In this document: piece after piece, positions 21,885 to 34,145 of the stretch
Position numbering within the stretch: position 1 is the stretch's first letter
How the letters are laid out: each line of letters opens with the position of its first letter
Assembly: GCA_020845895.1 (NCBI GenBank)
Contig: JADLEX010000011.1
Span: forward strand, 1-51,770
Reading direction: 5' to 3'
From: Deltaproteobacteria bacterium
GTDB taxonomy: Bacteria; Lernaellota; Lernaellaia; JACKCT01
Length of the DNA: 51,770 nucleotides
The notes under the pieces: generated by a model
What the model saw: the letters and a program-made list of their open reading frames with translations, nothing else
Database searches by the model: none
What the model was told of the DNA's origin: nothing
Program-made: the position numbers and the translations under genes

Positions 21885-21904
21885 CGCGATCACCGACCTT
21901 TGCT

Positions 21905-21991
21905 GGAGAGATGGCAGAGTGGTCGAATGCGGCGGCCTCGAAAGCCGTTGTACCGCTTGCGGTACCGGGGGTTCGAATCCCTCTCTCTCCG
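21905..21991 (+). tRNA. tRNA-Ser (anticodon CGA)
   Basis: The acceptor stem GGAGAGA/TCTCTCC with discriminator G encloses a D-arm with GGTCGAATGC, an anticodon arm GCGGC-CTCGAAA-GCCGT with anticodon CGA at 21939-21941 (reads UCG), a long class II variable arm (GTACCG..CGGTAC) and a T-arm GGGGG-TTCGAAT-CCCTC. CCA is not encoded. The long variable arm and discriminator G are serine identity elements. Confidence 0.96.
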
Positions 21992-22054
21992 AACGCCGCC
22001 GCCGATGAGCGGCGCCCGGTGATCCGTTTTTTTTTCCTATTCGTTTCGGTGCGC

Positions 22055-22142
22055 GGAGAGATGACCGAGTGGCCGAAGGTGCACGACTGGAAATCGTGTG
22101 TACGTCAAAAGCGTACCGAGGGTTCGACTCCCTCTCTCTCCG
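22055..22142 (+). tRNA. tRNA-Ser (anticodon GGA)
   Basis: The same acceptor stem GGAGAGA/TCTCTCC and discriminator G as the preceding tRNA are present. The anticodon arm CACGA-CTGGAAA-TCGTG has anticodon GGA at 22089-22091 (reads UCC and UCU). The variable arm is GTACG...CGTAC and the T-arm GAGGG-TTCGACT-CCCTC. CCA is not encoded. It lies 63 bp after the first tRNA-Ser, probably in the same transcript. Confidence 0.96.
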
Positions 22143-22153
22143 ATCCGATTCGC

Positions 22154-24463: not shown

Positions 24464-25084
24464 TCAGATCTCGAGCTTCATCACCGTCAGGCGAAACTTG
24501 CGAAACGCCATCTTGTTCTCCCCGGACGCGCTGGACGACGCCTTGCTCGCCGAATACATCACCTGCATCAGCACGTGATAGGGCGTTCGTTTATCGGCCA
24601 GAATCATCAGGTTGTCCTGGGCCTTGAGCTTTGGGTGAAGCTTGGCCAGGCGATTGAGCGTTTCGGCCTGTTGGTCGAGAGCCCCCTTGAGATTGGGGAC
24701 CATGTAGGGATTTTCCTTCGCGAGAAAATCCTGCGGGATCACGCCGTTCAGAATCGGCGCGACCTTTTTGTCCTCGACGACGACCTCGTCACGGGTGACG
24801 AAGATCTTGATCGCCTCGAGCGGCTGCTCGTCCTCGGTGGAGTAGGGCAGCGTCATGGCGTCGGAGACACTGACGTTTTGGGCGCTGAACGACACGCTCT
24901 TGAGCAGGAAGACGAGGATGATGGTCATCATGTCCATCATCGCGACGATGTTCAAATAGGTGATCTCGTCCGCGGCGCGCTTGGCCTTCCCGATCGCCCG
25001 GCGGCGTCGGTGCACGGCGCGAATCGCCGTGAACATCGGGGTCGCTGCGTCCTGGGAACCGTTCGCGTTGGCGGACTGCGTCAT
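24464..25084 (-). CDS. ExbD/TolR-family protein 2
   Basis: This protein of about 206 residues has a short N-terminal cytoplasmic stretch, one membrane helix in LNIVAMMDMMTIILVFLLKS (about 44-63) and a periplasmic domain. The conserved membrane Asp of ExbD/TolR proton channels is present in MMDMMTIIL. The periplasmic domain (IKIFVTRDEVVVEDKKVAPIL) has the TolR/ExbD fold pattern. The ATG at 25084 is preferred over an in-frame TTG one codon upstream. It is third in the operon after an ExbB-type channel and a second ExbD. A C-terminal extension (SASKASSSASGENKMAFRKF) is not typical. Confidence 0.85.
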   Translation of the reverse strand: MTQSANANGSQDAATPMFTAIRAVHRRRRAIGKAKRAADEITYLNIVAMMDMMTIILVFLLKSVSFSAQNVSVSDAMTLPYSTEDEQPLEAIKIFVTRDEVVVEDKKVAPILNGVIPQDFLAKENPYMVPNLKGALDQQAETLNRLAKLHPKLKAQDNLMILADKRTPYHVLMQVMYSASKASSSASGENKMAFRKFRLTVMKLEI

Positions 25085-25099
25085 CAAATTCGTCCGGGA

Positions 25100-25672
25100 T
25101 TATTGCGGCGCGTTCGTCGTGATGCCGACGATGCCCGGTGAAAGCTGAACGTCAGGGAACAGGATTCTCGGCCCCTGGTTTCGCAGCGCGTCCATCGTTT
25201 TTACGACGATGTCGTACTCGATGTCCTTCTCCGCCGCGAGGATCACGAGGGTCTCGTTGGGATAAGCGTCCTTGACCTCGATCGCGACTCGCTGCAGCGC
25301 GTCGTAGTCGTACTTCTGGTCCGCGGTCATCGCGATGGGCGGCATGACACCTCCGCGGCCCGCCACCGTGAAGCCCTGATGCGTGACGAAAACCGTCAGC
25401 GTCAGTTCGTTCTTCGGCGTTTCCTGCGGCGTCGATGCCTCGGACGACTTCACCGTCAGCGGAAAGATCGACATCATCGCCAGCGGCAGAACTGTGCTGA
25501 TCGCGACGAGGAGGAAGATGATCAGGTTGACGTTGACGTCGAGGTAAGGGACGAGGTTCAATTCTTCGTTGGCGTGGTACGACGGAATCTTCCGCCGTGC
25601 GCGCCGCAACAGCACCTGCGCCGCCTGTTCCTCGGCGGTCGCTTTTTTCTCGGGGGCTTTGTCGTCGGTCAT
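25100..25672 (-). CDS. ExbD/TolR-family protein 1
   Basis: This 190-residue protein has a cytoplasmic N-terminus rich in Ala, Glu and Arg, then the membrane helix in LNLVPYLDVNVNLIIFLLVA with the essential Asp (LVPYLDV), and a periplasmic TolR-like domain (LTVFVTHQGFTV...LVILAAEKDIEYDIVVKTMDAL). It pairs with ExbD protein 2 and the ExbB/TolQ/MotA-type channel. The two ExbD proteins are distinct in sequence, so a heteromeric rotor is likely. These motors couple proton flow to outer-membrane transport, envelope maintenance or gliding. Confidence 0.9.
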   Translation of the reverse strand: MTDDKAPEKKATAEEQAAQVLLRRARRKIPSYHANEELNLVPYLDVNVNLIIFLLVAISTVLPLAMMSIFPLTVKSSEASTPQETPKNELTLTVFVTHQGFTVAGRGGVMPPIAMTADQKYDYDALQRVAIEVKDAYPNETLVILAAEKDIEYDIVVKTMDALRNQGPRILFPDVQLSPGIVGITTNAPQ

Positions 25673-25714
25673 GCTGCTTGCCGGCCTTGTTCGGTTCGCT
25701 CGGCGAATGCCGGA

Positions 25715-26353
25715 TTATTTGTGGGCCGTCTTGCCGTGACGCAGAATCAGGTAATTCTCGAACGCGGCCGAATTCGACTCCAGTTCCGCCAGCATCTTTT
25801 TGCTTTTGCCGGCGAGGAGCAGGTGGCCCATCATGCACAGAATCGCGATGCCCAGACCGATCGCCGTGTTGTTCATGGCTTCGGAGATACCGGTCGCGAG
25901 GAAGGCCGCCTTCTGCTCGGGGCTGACCGCCGCGAGGGCGGCGAACGACCGGATGAGGCCAAAGATGGTGCCGAGGAGTCCGACCAGGGTGGCGATGTTC
26001 GCGAGGGACCACAGCGACGCAATCCGCTTTTCGAGCAGCGGCGACACGCGCATGAGTTCCTCGTCCATCGAGGTCGAAATCGCCATCGCGCCATCCTGCA
26101 ATTTGGCGATGCCCGCCTTGAGCACGCGCGCGATCGGCGCCGAGCTGGCGTTGCAAAGCTGAATCGCCTTCTCGAGCTGACGCTCCTGGAGCAGCCCGAC
26201 GATGTGCCGCGAGAAGACATCGGCGTCGACGCGGTAGGCGACGAACAGGCGATACGCCCGTTCGAGAATGATGCCGACGACGAACACCGAGATCACGATA
26301 TTGATGTAGATCGGCAAGCCGGCGTCTTTAAAAACCGTCGCAAACGTTCCCAT
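25715..26353 (-). CDS. ExbB/TolQ/MotA-family proton channel
   Basis: This 212-residue protein has three membrane helices: about 9-28 (IYINIVISVFVVGIILERAY), a central pair in LANIATLVGLLGTIFGLIRSF and TAIGLGIAILCMMGHLLLAG. The MotA_ExbB signature is GLLGTIFGLIRSF. The start ATG 26353 is inferred because a longer frame adds 24 residues without hydrophobic sequence. It begins a three-gene minus-strand operon with two ExbD proteins. The spacer 26354-26555 upstream has several short inverted repeats and no gene. Confidence 0.92.
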   Translation of the reverse strand: MGTFATVFKDAGLPIYINIVISVFVVGIILERAYRLFVAYRVDADVFSRHIVGLLQERQLEKAIQLCNASSAPIARVLKAGIAKLQDGAMAISTSMDEELMRVSPLLEKRIASLWSLANIATLVGLLGTIFGLIRSFAALAAVSPEQKAAFLATGISEAMNNTAIGLGIAILCMMGHLLLAGKSKKMLAELESNSAAFENYLILRHGKTAHK

Positions 26354-26555
26354 CGTACGGCACCCAAATCGTTGACGGACCGGGCACGACTCGCGGCCAT
26401 CCCCGCGATACGGTCCCGTATCCATTGTTCGGAAGGTGTTTTTAGCATGACTGGGAAAAGAAAATCCAGACCATTGGAAATCTGCCCGGTTTTTTTCTGC
26501 AATCCCGGGCGAAATCCCGATTTCGGCCCGACCGGTTTCGGGCTCGCCGTCTCGG

Positions 26556-28460: not shown

Positions 28461-28489
28461 TTGAACGGCAATTCATTCCGTATTATAAG
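28461..28489 (+). promoter_or_regulatory. Predicted promoter of the sulfur-oxidoreductase operon
   Basis: TTGAAC (28461-28466), a 17-bp spacer and TATAAG (28484-28489) lie in an AT-rich spacer (28370-28500 by eye), unlike the GC-rich surroundings. Transcription would begin near 28496, before the preferred ATG at 28564. No FNR-type dyad is apparent here. Confidence 0.55.
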
Positions 28490-28563
28490 GATATTGCGAA
28501 TACGCTATGTCGGCTTGTCCGACCCACCTCGGACCCGCCGACGAGATCGGAAAGGGACCGAAC

Positions 28564-30795
28564 ATGCCCACCGTCCACCGCCGAGATTTCATCCGCATCG
28601 CTTCGGTTTCCGCGGGCGCGGCCGCGGTCGCCACGGGACTGCCGACGAACTGGTGGGGCGCGTACGCGAGCGAGTCGCCCGATCCCGAAACCGACGGCGA
28701 CAGGATCGTCCCGACGTTCTGCGAGATCTGCTTCTGGAAATGCGGCGTGCTCGCGCACGTTAAAGATGGGCGCGTGACCAAGATCGTCGGCAATCCAGAT
28801 CATCCGCTTTCGAAAGGCCGGCTGTGTCCGCGCGGCACCGGCGGCACCGGGCTCCTCTACGACCCCGACCGGCTGAAGAAGCCCATGATCCGCGTGAAGA
28901 GTCGCGGCGAGCATCATTTCGAGGAAGTGAGTTGGGACAAGGCGCTCGACGAAACGGCCGAGCAACTGCTGCGCATTCGCGAAAAGCATGGCCCGGAAGC
29001 GCTCGCGCTCTTCACGCACGGCTACGGCGGAAAATGGTTCACGCACCTGCCGAAAGCGTACGGATCGCCGAACATCGGCGCGCCGTCTTATGCGCAGTGC
29101 CGTGGGCCGCGCGAGGTCGGCTACTCGCTCACCTACGGCACGGGCGTCGGATCGCCGGAAAACCTCGACATCGAGAACGCGCGCTGCCTGGTGCTGATCG
29201 GCTCGCATCTCGGCGAGAACATGCACAACACGCAGGTGCAGGAGATGGCGACGGCCATCGGGCGCGGCGCGGAGTTGGTGGTCGTCGATCCGAGGTTCTC
29301 CACCGCGGCGGGCAAAGCGCGTTACTGGTTGCCGATCAAGCCCGGCACCGACATGGCGCTGCTGCTCGCGTGGATGAACGTGATGATCTCCGAGGGGCGA
29401 TTCGACGCGGAGTACGTGGCGAAGTACGCCGTCGGTTTCGACGAACTCAAGGCGCACGTCGCCGACAAGACGCCCGAGTGGGCGTATCCGATCACGGGGC
29501 TGCGGCCCGAGCTGATTCGCGAGAGCGGACGATTTCTGGCGTCGTTCCGCCCCGCGACGCTGATTCATCCCGGCCGACGCACGACGTGGTACGGCGACGA
29601 CACGCAGCGCGGGCGCGCCATGGCGATCCTCGCAGCGCTTTTGGGCAGTTGGGGTCGGCGCGGCGGATACGTGTCGCACGGATCGAACGAACTCCCCGCG
29701 TACCCGTACACGAAATATGCGTATCACCCCAAGGTCCTTGCCGACAAACCGAATGCAAACACGTATCCGCTGGCGGACGAAGTGCTTGCGTCGGGTCTGT
29801 GCGACGCCACGTTCACCGGCAAAGCGCCTTACGAGATCAAGGGATGGCTCGTGTACGGCTCGAATCTGATGCAGTGCCTGCCGAATCCCAAGCAGACGAT
29901 CGAGGCGATCCAGAAACTCGACTTCATCGCGGCGATCGACGTGCTCCCATCGGAAATTGTCGGCTGGGCCGACGTGGTGCTGCCGGAGTCGACCTATCTG
30001 GAACGCTGCGACGAGCTGGTCGTCGATGCCTACAAGGGGCAACCGTACATCGCCGTGCGCCAACCGGCGGTCGAGCCCATGTATGACTCGAAACCGGGAT
30101 GGTGGATTGCGCGCGAGATCGCGCATCGCATCGGCCTGTCCGACTACTTCCCGTGGAAAGACAGCATGGAGTACGCCATGCATCGCCTCCACGCGGCGGG
30201 CTACGACTGCGACGTGCTGCGCGACACCGGCGTCATTCTCGGCGAACGCCAACCGAACTGCGAGGAGGAAGGACTCGCGCCCACCTTCGACACGCCGAGT
30301 GGAAAGATCGAGCTGCGCAGCCAGGCGCTCGCCGACATGGGATTCGAGGCGATTCCCGACTTCCACCCGCATGAGGAACCGCCCTCGGGCATGTTCCGTT
30401 TACTTTTTGGTCGCGCGCCCTCGCACACCTTTGGACGCACCACGAACAATCGATTCCTCGGCACCGTCTTCGATCAGAACGAGGTATGGGTCAACGCGGA
30501 TGTGGCGAAGTCACTGCCCGGCTTCGGCGCGCCGCTGAAAAACGGCGAACTCGTGGTGCTGGAAAATCAGGACGGAGTCCGCAGCACGCCCATTCGCGCG
30601 AAGGTGACCGAGCGGATTCGCGGAGACTGCGTGTACATGGTGCACGGCTGGGGCCACACGGCGAAGGGGCTCTCGTGGTCGCGCGGGCGCGGCGCATCCG
30701 ACAGCGAGCTCGTCACGCGCTACAAGGTCGACCCGATCATGGGCGGCACCGGCATGAACGTGAACTTCGTGCGCATCGCGCCGGTGGAGGCGTGA
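28564..30795 (+). CDS. Tat-exported molybdopterin oxidoreductase, PsrA/PhsA-like catalytic subunit
   Basis: This 743-residue protein begins with a twin-arginine signal (VHRRDFIRIASVSAGAAAVA). The [4Fe-4S] motif is CEICFWKC...C (Cys53, 56, 60, 88), then bis-MGD binding regions. SYAQCRGPR places Cys179 at the probable Mo ligand, as in PsrA. LARPTTL-like FRPATLIHPGRRTTWYG and the C-terminal PTFDTPSGKIELRS...MFRLLFGRAP belong to molybdopterin dinucleotide domains. The family reduces polysulfide, thiosulfate or tetrathionate in the periplasm with electrons from quinol, or runs in reverse. ATG 28564 is chosen over ATG 28507 because GAAAGGG precedes it and the Tat motif follows. Substrate not known. 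Confidence 0.88.
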   Translation: MPTVHRRDFIRIASVSAGAAAVATGLPTNWWGAYASESPDPETDGDRIVPTFCEICFWKCGVLAHVKDGRVTKIVGNPDHPLSKGRLCPRGTGGTGLLYDPDRLKKPMIRVKSRGEHHFEEVSWDKALDETAEQLLRIREKHGPEALALFTHGYGGKWFTHLPKAYGSPNIGAPSYAQCRGPREVGYSLTYGTGVGSPENLDIENARCLVLIGSHLGENMHNTQVQEMATAIGRGAELVVVDPRFSTAAGKARYWLPIKPGTDMALLLAWMNVMISEGRFDAEYVAKYAVGFDELKAHVADKTPEWAYPITGLRPELIRESGRFLASFRPATLIHPGRRTTWYGDDTQRGRAMAILAALLGSWGRRGGYVSHGSNELPAYPYTKYAYHPKVLADKPNANTYPLADEVLASGLCDATFTGKAPYEIKGWLVYGSNLMQCLPNPKQTIEAIQKLDFIAAIDVLPSEIVGWADVVLPESTYLERCDELVVDAYKGQPYIAVRQPAVEPMYDSKPGWWIAREIAHRIGLSDYFPWKDSMEYAMHRLHAAGYDCDVLRDTGVILGERQPNCEEEGLAPTFDTPSGKIELRSQALADMGFEAIPDFHPHEEPPSGMFRLLFGRAPSHTFGRTTNNRFLGTVFDQNEVWVNADVAKSLPGFGAPLKNGELVVLENQDGVRSTPIRAKVTERIRGDCVYMVHGWGHTAKGLSWSRGRGASDSELVTRYKVDPIMGGTGMNVNFVRIAPVEA

Positions 30796-30796
30796 C

Positions 30797-31354
30797 ATGA
30801 GACGCCTCACGCGCGAGATTCGCTATGCGATGGCCGTGGACACACGCCGGTGCGTGGGCTGCAATGCCTGTGTGCTGGCCTGCAAGGCTGAAAACAATCT
30901 GCCCGAAAACGGCTTTCGCGACTGGATCGTGACCGAAACGACGGGCAAGTTCCCAAACCTGTTTCAGGAGATTCGCTCGGAACGCTGCAATCACTGCGCG
31001 AACGCGCCATGCGTGTCGGCGTGCCCGACCGGCGCGAGTCACGTGGGAGTCGGCGGCATTGTGCTCGTCGATCCCGACAAGTGCACCGGCTGCAAAGCGT
31101 GCATTGCGTCGTGCCCTTACGACGCGCGCTACGTGCACGAGGACGGCGGCTTCGTCGACAAGTGCACGTTCTGCGTCCATCGGGTCGAAAAGGGCGGGCA
31201 GCCCGCGTGCGTCGAGATCTGCCCGACACGTTCGCTCACGTTCGGCGACGCGAACGATCCGGACAGCGAAATCTCCCGGCTTCGTGCGTCGCGCAAATCA
31301 AAGACATCGAAGCCCGAAGCCGGCACGCGGCCCAACGTCCACTTCCTGATCTAG
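30797..31354 (+). CDS. Four-cluster ferredoxin subunit (PsrB/NrfC-like)
   Basis: This 185-residue protein has four Cys sets: CVGCNACVLACKAEN, CNHCANAPCVSACPTGA, CTGCKACIASCPYDA and CTFCVHR...ACVEICPT, the pattern for four [4Fe-4S] clusters. It shuttles electrons between the molybdenum subunit and the membrane anchor. No signal peptide is seen, which suggests cotransport on the catalytic subunit's Tat signal. The gene follows the catalytic subunit by 1 bp. The C-terminal 20 residues are basic and linker-like. Confidence 0.95.
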   Translation: MRRLTREIRYAMAVDTRRCVGCNACVLACKAENNLPENGFRDWIVTETTGKFPNLFQEIRSERCNHCANAPCVSACPTGASHVGVGGIVLVDPDKCTGCKACIASCPYDARYVHEDGGFVDKCTFCVHRVEKGGQPACVEICPTRSLTFGDANDPDSEISRLRASRKSKTSKPEAGTRPNVHFLI

Positions 31355-31367
31355 GCGGGAGGCAAAG

Positions 31368-31883
31368 ATGAATCGCGCCGAGAAATTCTGGAATCCCTAC
31401 CTTGCCGGTATCGCGCTCGGTCTTGTGCTCTTGTCGTCCTTTCTCGTGATGGGCAAGGGACTCGGGGCGTCGGGCGCGGCGAACCGATTCGGCATCGCCG
31501 CACTCAACAGCATCGCTCCCGCTCACGTCGCCGCGAGTCCCGGCATGTCCGACGCGGTCGAAGGCGGGCGGCACCCGCTCGACAACTGGCTGGTCTTCGA
31601 GGTGCTCGGTGTGTTCCTGGGCGGCGCGGTCGCCGCGTACACGGCCGGGCGAATGAACTGGAAGATCGTCCGCGGCACGGGATGGTCCGCGCAGAAGCGC
31701 CTCGCGTTCGCGTTCGGCGGCGGCGTGGTGATGGGCATCGCCGCACGCATGGCGCGGGGCTGCACGTCGGGCCAGGCGCTCTCGGGCGGCGCGGTGCTCT
31801 CGGCGGGGAGCTGGGCGTTCATGCTGATGGTATTCGCGGGCGGCTACGCCGTCGCGTACTTCGTGCGGAGGCAGTGGTCATGA
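31368..31883 (+). CDS. YeeE/YedE-family transporter half, protein 1
   Basis: This 171-residue integral membrane protein has about four helices (about 12-30, 74-94, 112-128, 148-166). The diagnostic motif is ARGCTSGQALSGGAVLSAGSW with Cys132. DUF395 proteins, including E. coli YeeE (TsuA), take up thiosulfate through a Cys-relay pore, and half-size pairs are common. It overlaps the next gene by ATGA, so the two probably assemble. Placement inside the oxidoreductase operon points to a sulfur-anion substrate. Selenium transport is also reported in this superfamily. Confidence 0.88.
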   Translation: MNRAEKFWNPYLAGIALGLVLLSSFLVMGKGLGASGAANRFGIAALNSIAPAHVAASPGMSDAVEGGRHPLDNWLVFEVLGVFLGGAVAAYTAGRMNWKIVRGTGWSAQKRLAFAFGGGVVMGIAARMARGCTSGQALSGGAVLSAGSWAFMLMVFAGGYAVAYFVRRQWS

Positions 31884-33079
31884 ACACGCTCTTCCCCTTC
31901 GATTCGCTCGTACACGGCCATTATCAATTCGGCCTCGTCGCGGCGGTGGCGATCGGTTTTGCGTTCGGATTTGTGCTCGAGCGCGCGGGATTCGGCCGCG
32001 CCGACAAGCTCGCGGCGCAGTTCTATCTGCATGATATGCGCGTCTTCAAGGTGATGTTCACGGGCATCGTAACGGCGATGCTCGGCCTCGTCATCGCCGC
32101 CGGGCTGGGTCTCGCCGACCTTCGCGCGATCTCGCAGTCGGTGGCGAGCGAGACATTTTGGGTGCCGATGATCGCGGGAGGCTTTCTGCTCGGCGTCGGG
32201 TTCATCGTGTCGGGCTACTGCCCGGGAACGTCGCTCGTCGCGAGCGCGTCCGGAAACCTCGACGGCATTATGGCGTTCGCGGGCGTCGTCGTCGGAACGC
32301 TCATCTACGGCGAGGCGTTTCCCGCGATTCGCGAATTCCATTTCGCGGGCGCTGCCGGCCAAGTCTTTCTCTACGACGTTTTCGGTATGAGCCCCGCGCT
32401 ACTCGCGGCAATCGTCGCGGTCGCTGCCGTGGCGATGTTCTTCGGCGCCGAAAAGGTCGAGCGGATCGTTCGCGCGAAACGTACAATGGGAGCGGACGAA
32501 GCGCCCGAACCCGTTCGTCGCATGGCGTTCGGCGCGATCGGCGCGCTGGCCGCGACCGCAGTGGTCGTGATGCTCGTCCCCGTGACCATGGGCGCGGCGA
32601 CACCGGCCACGATTGATTCGATCGACGCCGAAACCCTCGCGCACCGCGTGGTAGAGTCGCCGTGGACGATCCGCGTGATCGACCTGCGCGACGCCGAGGC
32701 GTGCGCGGCCGCTCGCGTGCCCGGAAGCGAATGCGTCGGTCCGGACGGACTGGCGTCACTTGGCCTTGCCGACGACGCAGGCGCCCGCGAACTGGTGCTC
32801 GTCGGCGACGCCGCATTCCATGCGCCGGCCGCGGCGAATGCTTACCCGGGGAGAATTTCGGCGCTCGCGGGCGGGTTCCCGTCGTGGCGCGCGTTCGCGC
32901 TCGAAGCCCCCGCAGAATCGCCGGGTGCCGATTGGACGCCCGCTGAGTGGGATCGCTTTCGCTTCCGGACGGCGCTGAACGGCGTGCTCACGGGCGCGGC
33001 CGCCGCGCCGGTCGTTGCCGCGCCGACGGGCGCTGTCGCCGCCGCGCCGAAAAAGAAAAAGGCCGGCGGGTGCAGTTGA
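31880..33079 (+). CDS. YeeE/YedE transporter half fused to Cys-less rhodanese-like domain
   Basis: This 399-residue protein has a membrane part (about 15-240) with the pore motif SGYCPGTSLVASASGNLDG (Cys114) and six or so helices. A periplasmic or cytoplasmic domain (about 245-340) follows and resembles rhodanese: WTIRVIDLRDAEACAAARVPGS and ISALAGGFPSWRAFALEAP. The expected catalytic Cys position has VLVGDAAFHAP instead, so it should not be a sulfurtransferase; Cys275 and Cys285 are elsewhere in the domain. A Pro/Ala linker leads to KKKKAGGCS at the C-terminus, with Cys398 as the penultimate residue. Partner of the preceding half-transporter. Confidence 0.85.
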   Translation: MNTLFPFDSLVHGHYQFGLVAAVAIGFAFGFVLERAGFGRADKLAAQFYLHDMRVFKVMFTGIVTAMLGLVIAAGLGLADLRAISQSVASETFWVPMIAGGFLLGVGFIVSGYCPGTSLVASASGNLDGIMAFAGVVVGTLIYGEAFPAIREFHFAGAAGQVFLYDVFGMSPALLAAIVAVAAVAMFFGAEKVERIVRAKRTMGADEAPEPVRRMAFGAIGALAATAVVVMLVPVTMGAATPATIDSIDAETLAHRVVESPWTIRVIDLRDAEACAAARVPGSECVGPDGLASLGLADDAGARELVLVGDAAFHAPAAANAYPGRISALAGGFPSWRAFALEAPAESPGADWTPAEWDRFRFRTALNGVLTGAAAAPVVAAPTGAVAAAPKKKKAGGCS

Positions 33080-33115
33080 GAAGAGTTGCATGACAACAAA
33101 CGCGGGAGCGCGGCC

Positions 33116-34072
33116 ATGACGGAAATCGAAGTCAACCGAAACAGCCACCTGATCGATCCCGTGATGCACATCTGGGGTTGGGAGATTCCGGTCTATCTGT
33201 TCCTGGGCGGGCTCGCGGCGGGGATGATGATCCTCTCGGCGGCAATGGCGCTACGGGACGTGGATGGTCGTCGCTCGAAATGGGCGCGCTTCGCTCCGTT
33301 TGCCGCGCCGATTCTGCTCTCCATCGGCATGGCGGCGCTTTTCGCCGATCTCGAATTCAAATCGCACGTCTTTCGGTTCTATTTCGCGCTGCGCGTGACC
33401 TCACCCATGTCTTGGGGCTCCTGGATACTGCTGGGGATCTACCCCGCGACGATTCTGCTCGGACTGGCGTCGATGACCGAAAGCGAACGCGTCGCCGCGA
33501 CCTCGTGGAATCCGCGTTGCCCGGTGGTTGTCGGTCAGACGCTCGACCGCCTGTGGCGCTGGGCGCGCTCAAACGTCGCGATGCTGGCGAAGATCAACAT
33601 CGCCCTCGGCGTTCTGCTCGGAGGATACACGGGCGTGCTGCTCGGCACGCTCGCCGCGCGCGCCGCGTGGAACTCGATCTTCCTCGGACCGCTCTTTCTC
33701 GTATCCGGGCTCTCGACGGGCGCGGCGCTGTTCATGCTGTTTCTCGTGTCGGCTGACGAGCACCATCGCCTGCGTCGGTGGGATCTCGTCGCGATCGGTG
33801 TCGAGATTCTTCTGCTCGCGATGTTCTTTCTCGCCCTCGCGGGCGGCGGCGGACAGACCGGGCGCGACGCGGCCACGCTCTTTTTCGGCGGACCGTTCAC
33901 GGCGGTCTTCTGGTCGCTCGTGGTCGCCGTCGGCCTGATCGTTCCCGCCGTTCTCGAATTGCTGGAGTCCCGCCTCGGCCTGCGCCCCGCGAGGCTTGCC
34001 CAGGCGCTCATTCTGATTGGGGGATTGTCCTTGAGGTGGATTCTTGTCCTGGCGGGGCAGGCTTCCGTTTGA
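33116..34072 (+). CDS. NrfD/PsrC-type membrane subunit
   Basis: This 318-residue protein has about eight to nine membrane helices. It opens with HIWGWEIPVYLFLGGLAAGMMILSAAMAL, the signature of NrfD/PsrC quinone-interacting anchors that carry no haem. Other helices include LINIALGVLLGGYTGVLLG-like KINIALGVLLGGYTGV and a final AQALILIGGLSLRWILV. It takes electrons from, or passes them to, the quinone pool for the molybdopterin complex. Start ATG 33116 is chosen over 33086 because the conserved N-terminus follows it and GGGAG lies upstream. It is last in the operon and followed by a terminator. Confidence 0.93.
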   Translation: MTEIEVNRNSHLIDPVMHIWGWEIPVYLFLGGLAAGMMILSAAMALRDVDGRRSKWARFAPFAAPILLSIGMAALFADLEFKSHVFRFYFALRVTSPMSWGSWILLGIYPATILLGLASMTESERVAATSWNPRCPVVVGQTLDRLWRWARSNVAMLAKINIALGVLLGGYTGVLLGTLAARAAWNSIFLGPLFLVSGLSTGAALFMLFLVSADEHHRLRRWDLVAIGVEILLLAMFFLALAGGGGQTGRDAATLFFGGPFTAVFWSLVVAVGLIVPAVLELLESRLGLRPARLAQALILIGGLSLRWILVLAGQASV

Positions 34073-34105: not shown

Positions 34106-34145
34106 GGCCGGATTGTGCGTTCGGGCACAATCCGGCCATTGTTTT
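34106..34145 (+). terminator. Rho-independent terminator of the sulfur-oxidoreductase operon
   Basis: A perfect 13-bp stem (GGCCGGATTGTGC / GCACAATCCGGCC) with a 6-nt loop is followed by ATTGTTTT. It lies 34 bp after the NrfD stop and separates the operon from the radical SAM gene. Confidence 0.85.

Follow-up and report, generated by a model that had tools for sequence, protein, structure and literature searches.

A half-YeeE protein with a rhodanese-like domain lacking its catalytic cysteine and with a conserved C-terminal cysteine in a Psr/Phs-type reductase operon: a candidate membrane-tethered sulfur carrier

A 51,770-nt stretch of contig JADLEX010000011.1 (assembly GCA_020845895.1, positions 1-51,770), hereafter the window, contains at 28564-34072 five plus-strand open reading frames (ORFs), psrA, psrB, yeeE1, yeeE2-rho and psrC, in that order. 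They encode a Psr/Phs-type molybdenum reductase and a pair of half-size YeeE proteins, the second of which continues into a rhodanese-like domain without a catalytic Cys and a tail ending in a near-invariant Cys. Based on sequence and comparative analysis, we propose that this appendage may act as a membrane-tethered sulfur-carrier arm working between the YeeE pair and the periplasmic, quinol-linked reductase, a reading to which we give an even chance of being right.

The ORFs and their Pfam/NCBIfam assignments (Molybdopterin and Fe4S4 in PsrA, Fer4_11 in PsrB, PF04143 Sulf_transp above cut-off in both YeeE halves and NrfD in PsrC) bear out a first-pass annotation of this DNA, which had described PsrABC/PhsABC-type subunits with two YeeE halves placed between ferredoxin and anchor. 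Its title, however, spoke of an oxidoreductase fused with a transporter; the reductase is fused to nothing, and the sole fusion is that of YeeE2 with the rhodanese-like domain. The gaps between genes are short (1 nt for psrA/psrB, 13 nt for psrB/yeeE1 and 36 nt for yeeE2/psrC), and yeeE1 and yeeE2 overlap by 4 nt, ATGA. This tight spacing, together with a strong terminator right after psrC, is most simply explained by a single five-gene transcription unit spanning 28564-34072.

The identification of the domain fused to YeeE2 as a rhodanese fold holds at the level of structure prediction and of the protein's relatives, although a Pfam search of the window's own YeeE2-Rho protein gave no rhodanese match. 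AlphaFold models the domain with a predicted local distance difference test (pLDDT) score of 73-90, the Foldseek matches listed are nearly all rhodanese domains, with YgaP among them at a template-modeling score of 0.71 by target, and PF00581 is above cut-off in relatives, including that of the same-family locus L003. Gly309 (codon 32804) occupies the catalytic Cys position, as the first-pass annotation had seen; the column was located with a GlpE sequence as ruler. Loss of the catalytic Cys is a family-wide trait. We aligned 65 rhodanese-like domains from YeeE2-linked proteins, of which 48 are fused to YeeE2 and 17 are encoded by a separate downstream gene (the latter read stop to stop, so that some upstream residues lie outside the real protein). 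The column contains Cys in 0/65, being occupied by Gly (24), Ser (22), Ala (12) or other residues (7), while the remaining fold signature is kept (DxR Asp 62/65, DxR Arg 62/65, GG 64/65 and W 56/65). Two secreted tandem rhodaneses from neighboring loci, placed in the same alignment, retain the catalytic Cys. YeeE2-Rho is predicted to have the fold of an active rhodanese, though not the Cys of its active-site loop, and with that residue gone the domain would be unable to act as a normal rhodanese.

The C-terminal tail contains a different Cys. In 63 of the 65 relatives one of the final three positions is a Cys, which is the last residue in 20 proteins and is followed by one residue in 30 and by two in 13; the next most frequent Cys column reaches 16/65. 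The commonest endings are GCG, GGC, EGC, CGG and CSG, with GC, GGCG, GGCS and GGCGG also seen. The tail extends 15-98 residues (median 65) past the last rhodanese helix, and its best-conserved columns are the terminal Cys (63) and the preceding Gly (62), followed by a few Gly, Pro or Lys columns. In the window protein the last 28 residues are predicted to be disordered. Half-YeeE proteins without a rhodanese domain have no terminal Cys. A near-invariant terminal Cys in an otherwise little-conserved tail, found in the modules of both reductase kinds described below, favors thiol chemistry over structure alone. As to location, a hydrophobic helix precedes the rhodanese domain in 64/65 relatives, and more Lys plus Arg residues precede this helix than follow it (2.9 vs 1.6; p 2e-7, a value that overstates independence because the 65 sequences are related). 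From the helix and the charge bias, the domain and its tail are predicted to lie on the periplasmic side, next to PsrA. The first-pass annotation had called the rhodanese dead, which is correct insofar as the catalytic Cys is absent in 65/65; it missed Cys398, and the architecture, in which the Cys has been relocated, is conserved and probably functional. This family-wide swap of a loop Cys for a terminal Cys, together with the exchange of partners, is the strongest part of the case and had been overlooked.

The exchange of partners shows in the surroundings of the modules. The 65 rhodanese-bearing modules comprise 32 that are Psr-linked, 24 that are linked to an octaheme tetrathionate-reductase-family (OTR) cytochrome c and b561, 2 that are rhodanese-linked and 7 that stand alone or at a contig end. 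In the 24 OTR loci the octaheme protein is identified by TIGR04315 (E down to 1e-182), and these loci usually add a multiheme protein and a cytochrome b561. Four loci (L111, L115, L128 and L138) combine the module with PsrA and a PsrB-b561 fusion, for which the evidence is a Pfam match in L128 and reading by eye in L111, while in the two rhodanese-linked loci the module lies beside secreted tandem rhodaneses. In total, the neighbor of 58/65 modules is a secreted rhodanese, a periplasmic reductase or the membrane anchor of such a reductase, and none of these neighbors is a cytoplasmic sulfur enzyme. The occurrence of the module with two unrelated reductase kinds, Psr and OTR, indicates an interchangeable device, not a Psr subunit; from the sequences it looks like a sulfur-handling device shared by at least two unrelated reductases. 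The first-pass interpretation is borne out in part: coupling of a sulfur transporter to a Psr-type reductase is well supported by conservation, but the module is not Psr-specific, as it is also found with octaheme cytochromes. L111 (2-11200) and L115 (7193-18600) each contain two distinct Psr/YeeE modules in tandem, one with an NrfD-type PsrC and the other with the PsrB-cytochrome b561 fusion. At L116, L119, L120, L121 and L122, mostly from an Anaeromyxobacter-like genus, rhodanese-less YeeE pairs lie beside a gene that is weakly OTR-like (28-30%), and a third multiheme partner may exist.

Conservation of the arrangement was surveyed in named loci, in 386 sampled genomes and in 195 genomes belonging to the phylum of G178 (the phyla of G056 and G329, with five genomes each, added little). 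The gene order of the window, A-B-y1-y2rho-C, is found at 15 loci, 14 of them in other sampled genomes (the window, L003, L004, L050, L051, L106-L110, L111, L112-L114 and L115, the entries for L111 and L115 being the second copy in each). Its conservation beyond one genome, on which the first-pass annotation had made its interpretation depend, rules out a unique order or an assembly artefact. The order A-B-C-y1-y2(rho) is found at 11 loci from several phyla (L005, L052, L053, L054, L064, L065, L069, L070, L117, L126 and L129), and contig ends truncate some further cases (L123; L090 with L055); among the named phyla, L004 is from Myxococcota and L005 from Gemmatimonadota. The PsrA tree includes five sampled rows that have the order of the window, and these make up a single clade (99/98) nested among the A-B-C-y1-y2 rows. 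This nesting suggests a single derived rearrangement, in which the yeeE genes look to have been placed ahead of psrC once. We found no report of the YeeE1/YeeE2-Rho module in the open-licence papers searched.

The catalytic subunit belongs, by sequence, to the Psr/Phs clade of the molybdenum-bis(pyranopterin guanine dinucleotide) family, and not to ArrA, Ttr or Fdh. The Psr/Phs hallmarks are all present: a twin-arginine translocation signal (RRDF), the 4Fe-4S Cys residues 53/56/60/88, the Mo-ligand Cys179, a four-cluster B subunit (PsrB contains 16 Cys, from which four [4Fe-4S] clusters are expected) and an NrfD anchor. The best PDB match of PsrA is the Thermus thermophilus Psr (2vpw, 728 bits, ~49% identity); acetylene hydratase scores 217 bits and ArrA 159. 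In the maximum-likelihood tree the 14 YeeE-linked PsrA proteins lie on one side of a branch with weak support (47/75); the larger group that adds the contig-truncated locus L091 is supported at 99/98, its sister is the T. thermophilus Psr (99/99), and ArrA and acetylene hydratase fall outside the Psr/Phs group. Bit scores and tree together rule out arsenate reductase or another molybdoenzyme group, an assignment that the first-pass annotation had named as fatal to its proposal. The substrate of Psr/Phs enzymes is not readable from sequence (PMC13047784). At L003 (4671-6900), in a metagenome-assembled genome of the same family, psrA is split, with residues 1-415 in one reading frame and 393-743 in another, which reflects either a frameshift or an error of assembly.

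Each YeeE half contains one conserved Cys, in ARGCTSGQ (GCTSG) of YeeE1 and, as Cys114, in GYCPGTS of YeeE2. The DUF6691 match is weak (18 bits vs a cut-off of 27), P0004 (YeeE-Rho) and P0005 had no match among PDB sequences, and a plasmid search with P0004 returned two weak partial matches only. This YeeE pair is the only one in the genome, which measures 4.98 Mb and is 99.5% complete. At L009 (8235-8237) and L074 (8230-8232) an in-frame TGA replaces the conserved YeeE2 Cys codon (GGY-TGA-PGTS), consistent with selenocysteine. Selenocysteine-containing YeeE proteins with a GUxSG motif are known (PMC13188914); the TGA codon of L009 and L074 corresponds to the Cys of the other YeeE half. At L062 (7946-9673, in G344) a second yeeE pair follows the N-terminal 219 residues of psrA alone, apparently a broken or chimeric copy.

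The mechanism that we consider most likely is the following. YeeE1 and YeeE2 would together make one YeeE-type sulfur channel or transporter, the tail Cys would load sulfane sulfur as a per- or polysulfide, and the loaded tail would swing from the YeeE mouth to the molybdenum site of PsrA or, elsewhere, to the heme site of the octaheme reductase, with the rhodanese fold acting as a docking platform or scaffold. The arm would be SoxY-like and would do the job that Sud does for Wolinella Psr. We infer both the substrate, which may be polysulfide, thiosulfate or tetrathionate, and the direction of YeeE transport. The module probably hands sulfur to the enzyme. The fuller proposal is of a new class of membrane-tethered carrier, in which a half-YeeE bears an inactivated rhodanese, a swinging arm at the C terminus has taken over the Cys that binds sulfur, delivery is interchangeable between molybdenum Psr and octaheme cytochrome c, and transport and reduction are channeled through one thiol; this we advance tentatively, judging its chances to be a little short of even.

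Several observations weigh against a carrier arm. The T. thermophilus Psr works without a YeeE/Rho module, and rhodanese-less YeeE pairs lie beside an unrelated multiheme gene and, at the single locus L118, beside psrABC. The terminal Cys is missing in 2/65 members and could serve another purpose, such as a redox switch, a metal or heme contact or a tether. The full-length YeeE2-Rho model, built from six sequences, averages only 60 in pLDDT. Finally, growth tests on Caldithrix abyssi, whose psr genes are close to single-domain sulfur transferases (the comparison being one of those neighbors alone), showed no respiration of sulfur, polysulfide or thiosulfate (PMC5317091).

The alternative that survives best, though we consider it unlikely, is that the YeeE pair takes up thiosulfate or sulfane sulfur with the rhodanese/Cys tail as its capture device, PsrABC being co-expressed through a common substrate without physical hand-over. 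Import is the activity of relatives, as TsuA/YeeE imports thiosulfate according to work cited in PMC11582611 and YedE1E2 imports zero-valent sulfur (PMC10812762), and YeeE pairs are also found away from reductases. However, TusA was not detected in the 99.5% complete genome, which argues against the standard cytoplasmic relay for imported sulfur in this organism, and the periplasmic or membrane neighbors of the 58 modules likewise offer no cytoplasmic enzyme as recipient. A regulatory or assembly role for the rhodanese remnant and tail, whether in sensing redox state through the thiol, in tethering or in docking PsrA to YeeE with no sulfur carried, would fit the inactive site of every member, a property shared with regulatory rhodanese-like domains, and a tail that is Lys-rich and disordered; it seems improbable, since a lone near-invariant terminal Cys in the modules of two unrelated sulfur reductases suits thiol chemistry better. 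More improbable still is export of an internal sulfur species (or sulfide or sulfite) to the periplasm, with the arm feeding the reductase or clearing product, for although all catalytic partners are periplasmic or membrane-anchored and neither TusA nor, in a whole-genome search, any DsrA above cut-off was found as a cytoplasmic acceptor, the known transport directions of YeeE relatives in the cited literature are all import and no internal sulfur source was identified.

Delivery of insoluble or toxic sulfane sulfur to periplasmic reductases is a problem to which Sud is the answer in one organism, and we know of no sulfur carrier for the T. thermophilus Psr. With a single thiol as candidate carrier and two unrelated reductases as partners, the conserved module makes the delivery question testable by point mutation. 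The module is also a genomic marker that, in uncultured bacteria, helps to tell sulfur metabolism of the Psr/Phs and OTR types from molybdoenzymes and cytochromes of similar appearance. For many cytochromes of the OTR family it suggests a role linked to sulfur.

Table 1. Coordinates of the operon and of the parts of YeeE2-Rho in the window
Feature	Coordinates	Strand	Basis
psrA-type catalytic subunit	28564..30795	+	743 aa; Pfam PF00384/PF04879/PF01568; PDB match 2vpw; tree; residues
psrB-type ferredoxin subunit	30797..31354	+	PF13247 (Fer4_11); Cys count
yeeE1, half-size YeeE/YedE sulfur transporter	31368..31883	+	PF04143, E 1.9e-20
yeeE2-rho, half-size YeeE followed by a transmembrane helix, a rhodanese-like domain lacking Cys and a tail with a C-terminal Cys	31880..33079	+	PF04143, E 1.9e-17; AlphaFold2; alignments
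Extra transmembrane helix of yeeE2-rho, residues 213-232, predicted to export the domain	32516..32575	+	AlphaFold2 helix; hydropathy and charge bias, 65 relatives
Rhodanese-like domain, about residues 244-341	32609..32902	+	AlphaFold2; Foldseek; alignment
Disordered Lys-rich tail ending KKKKAGGCS; Cys398 codon 33071-33073	32993..33076	+	AlphaFold2 pLDDT about 34-64; relatives' alignment
psrC-type NrfD quinol-reacting membrane anchor	33116..34072	+	PF03916, E 3e-41
Intrinsic terminator closing the five-gene operon	34106..34137	+	Hairpin -34.7 kcal/mol, z -5.5 vs shuffles

The start of psrC is probably 33116 rather than 33086, and a long antisense ORF opposite psrA (28483-30372) was not counted as a gene. 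Elsewhere in the window, a gene resembling TolQ/ExbB and, after it, two ExbD-like genes, judged by eye from their translations, lie upstream of the operon on the minus strand (24464-26425), and an adjacent tRNA-Ser pair with anticodons CGA and GGA is located at 21904-22143 (+).

Comparison with characterized systems places the module among several partial likenesses. T. thermophilus PsrABC (the 2vpw family) has the closest characterized catalytic subunit and shares all three subunits; in contrast, it has no YeeE pair nearby, no YeeE-Rho (P0004-like) gene was found in the genome with an identical TtPsrA (G169/L092), and PF03916 is the family to which PsrC of the window belongs. OTR (TIGR04315), the alternative catalytic partner in 24 relatives' loci, is an unrelated heme enzyme that does not lie beside the window's genes. 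In PmpA/PmpB and YedE1E2 two half-size YeeE proteins form one transporter (PMC11582611, PMC10812762), and zero-valent sulfur enters E. coli by way of the split YedE1E2 pair (PMC10812762); the window pair differs in its rhodanese/Cys-tail appendage, its reductase neighbor and its weak DUF6691 match. The proposed role of the appendage, that of a periplasmic rhodanese-fold protein giving polysulfide sulfur to Psr, is that of Sud, whereas the window domain is predicted to be membrane-tethered, is fused to a transporter half, lacks the loop Cys and has its candidate carrier Cys at the C terminus. Sud is a rhodanese-type protein. In Wolinella succinogenes it is periplasmic and presents polysulfide to Psr (PMC2628731). 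The tail itself recalls SoxY in carrying a Cys near the very C terminus of a flexible, Gly-rich arm. The SoxY ending is GGCGG, and some YeeE2-Rho relatives end in the same residues. SoxY is a swinging-arm sulfur carrier, and lucinid symbionts have a divergent soxY next to otr (PMC11237559). However, the window protein has a rhodanese fold, not that of SoxY, has no SoxZ and is membrane-tethered by prediction, and the resemblance of the two arms is convergent.

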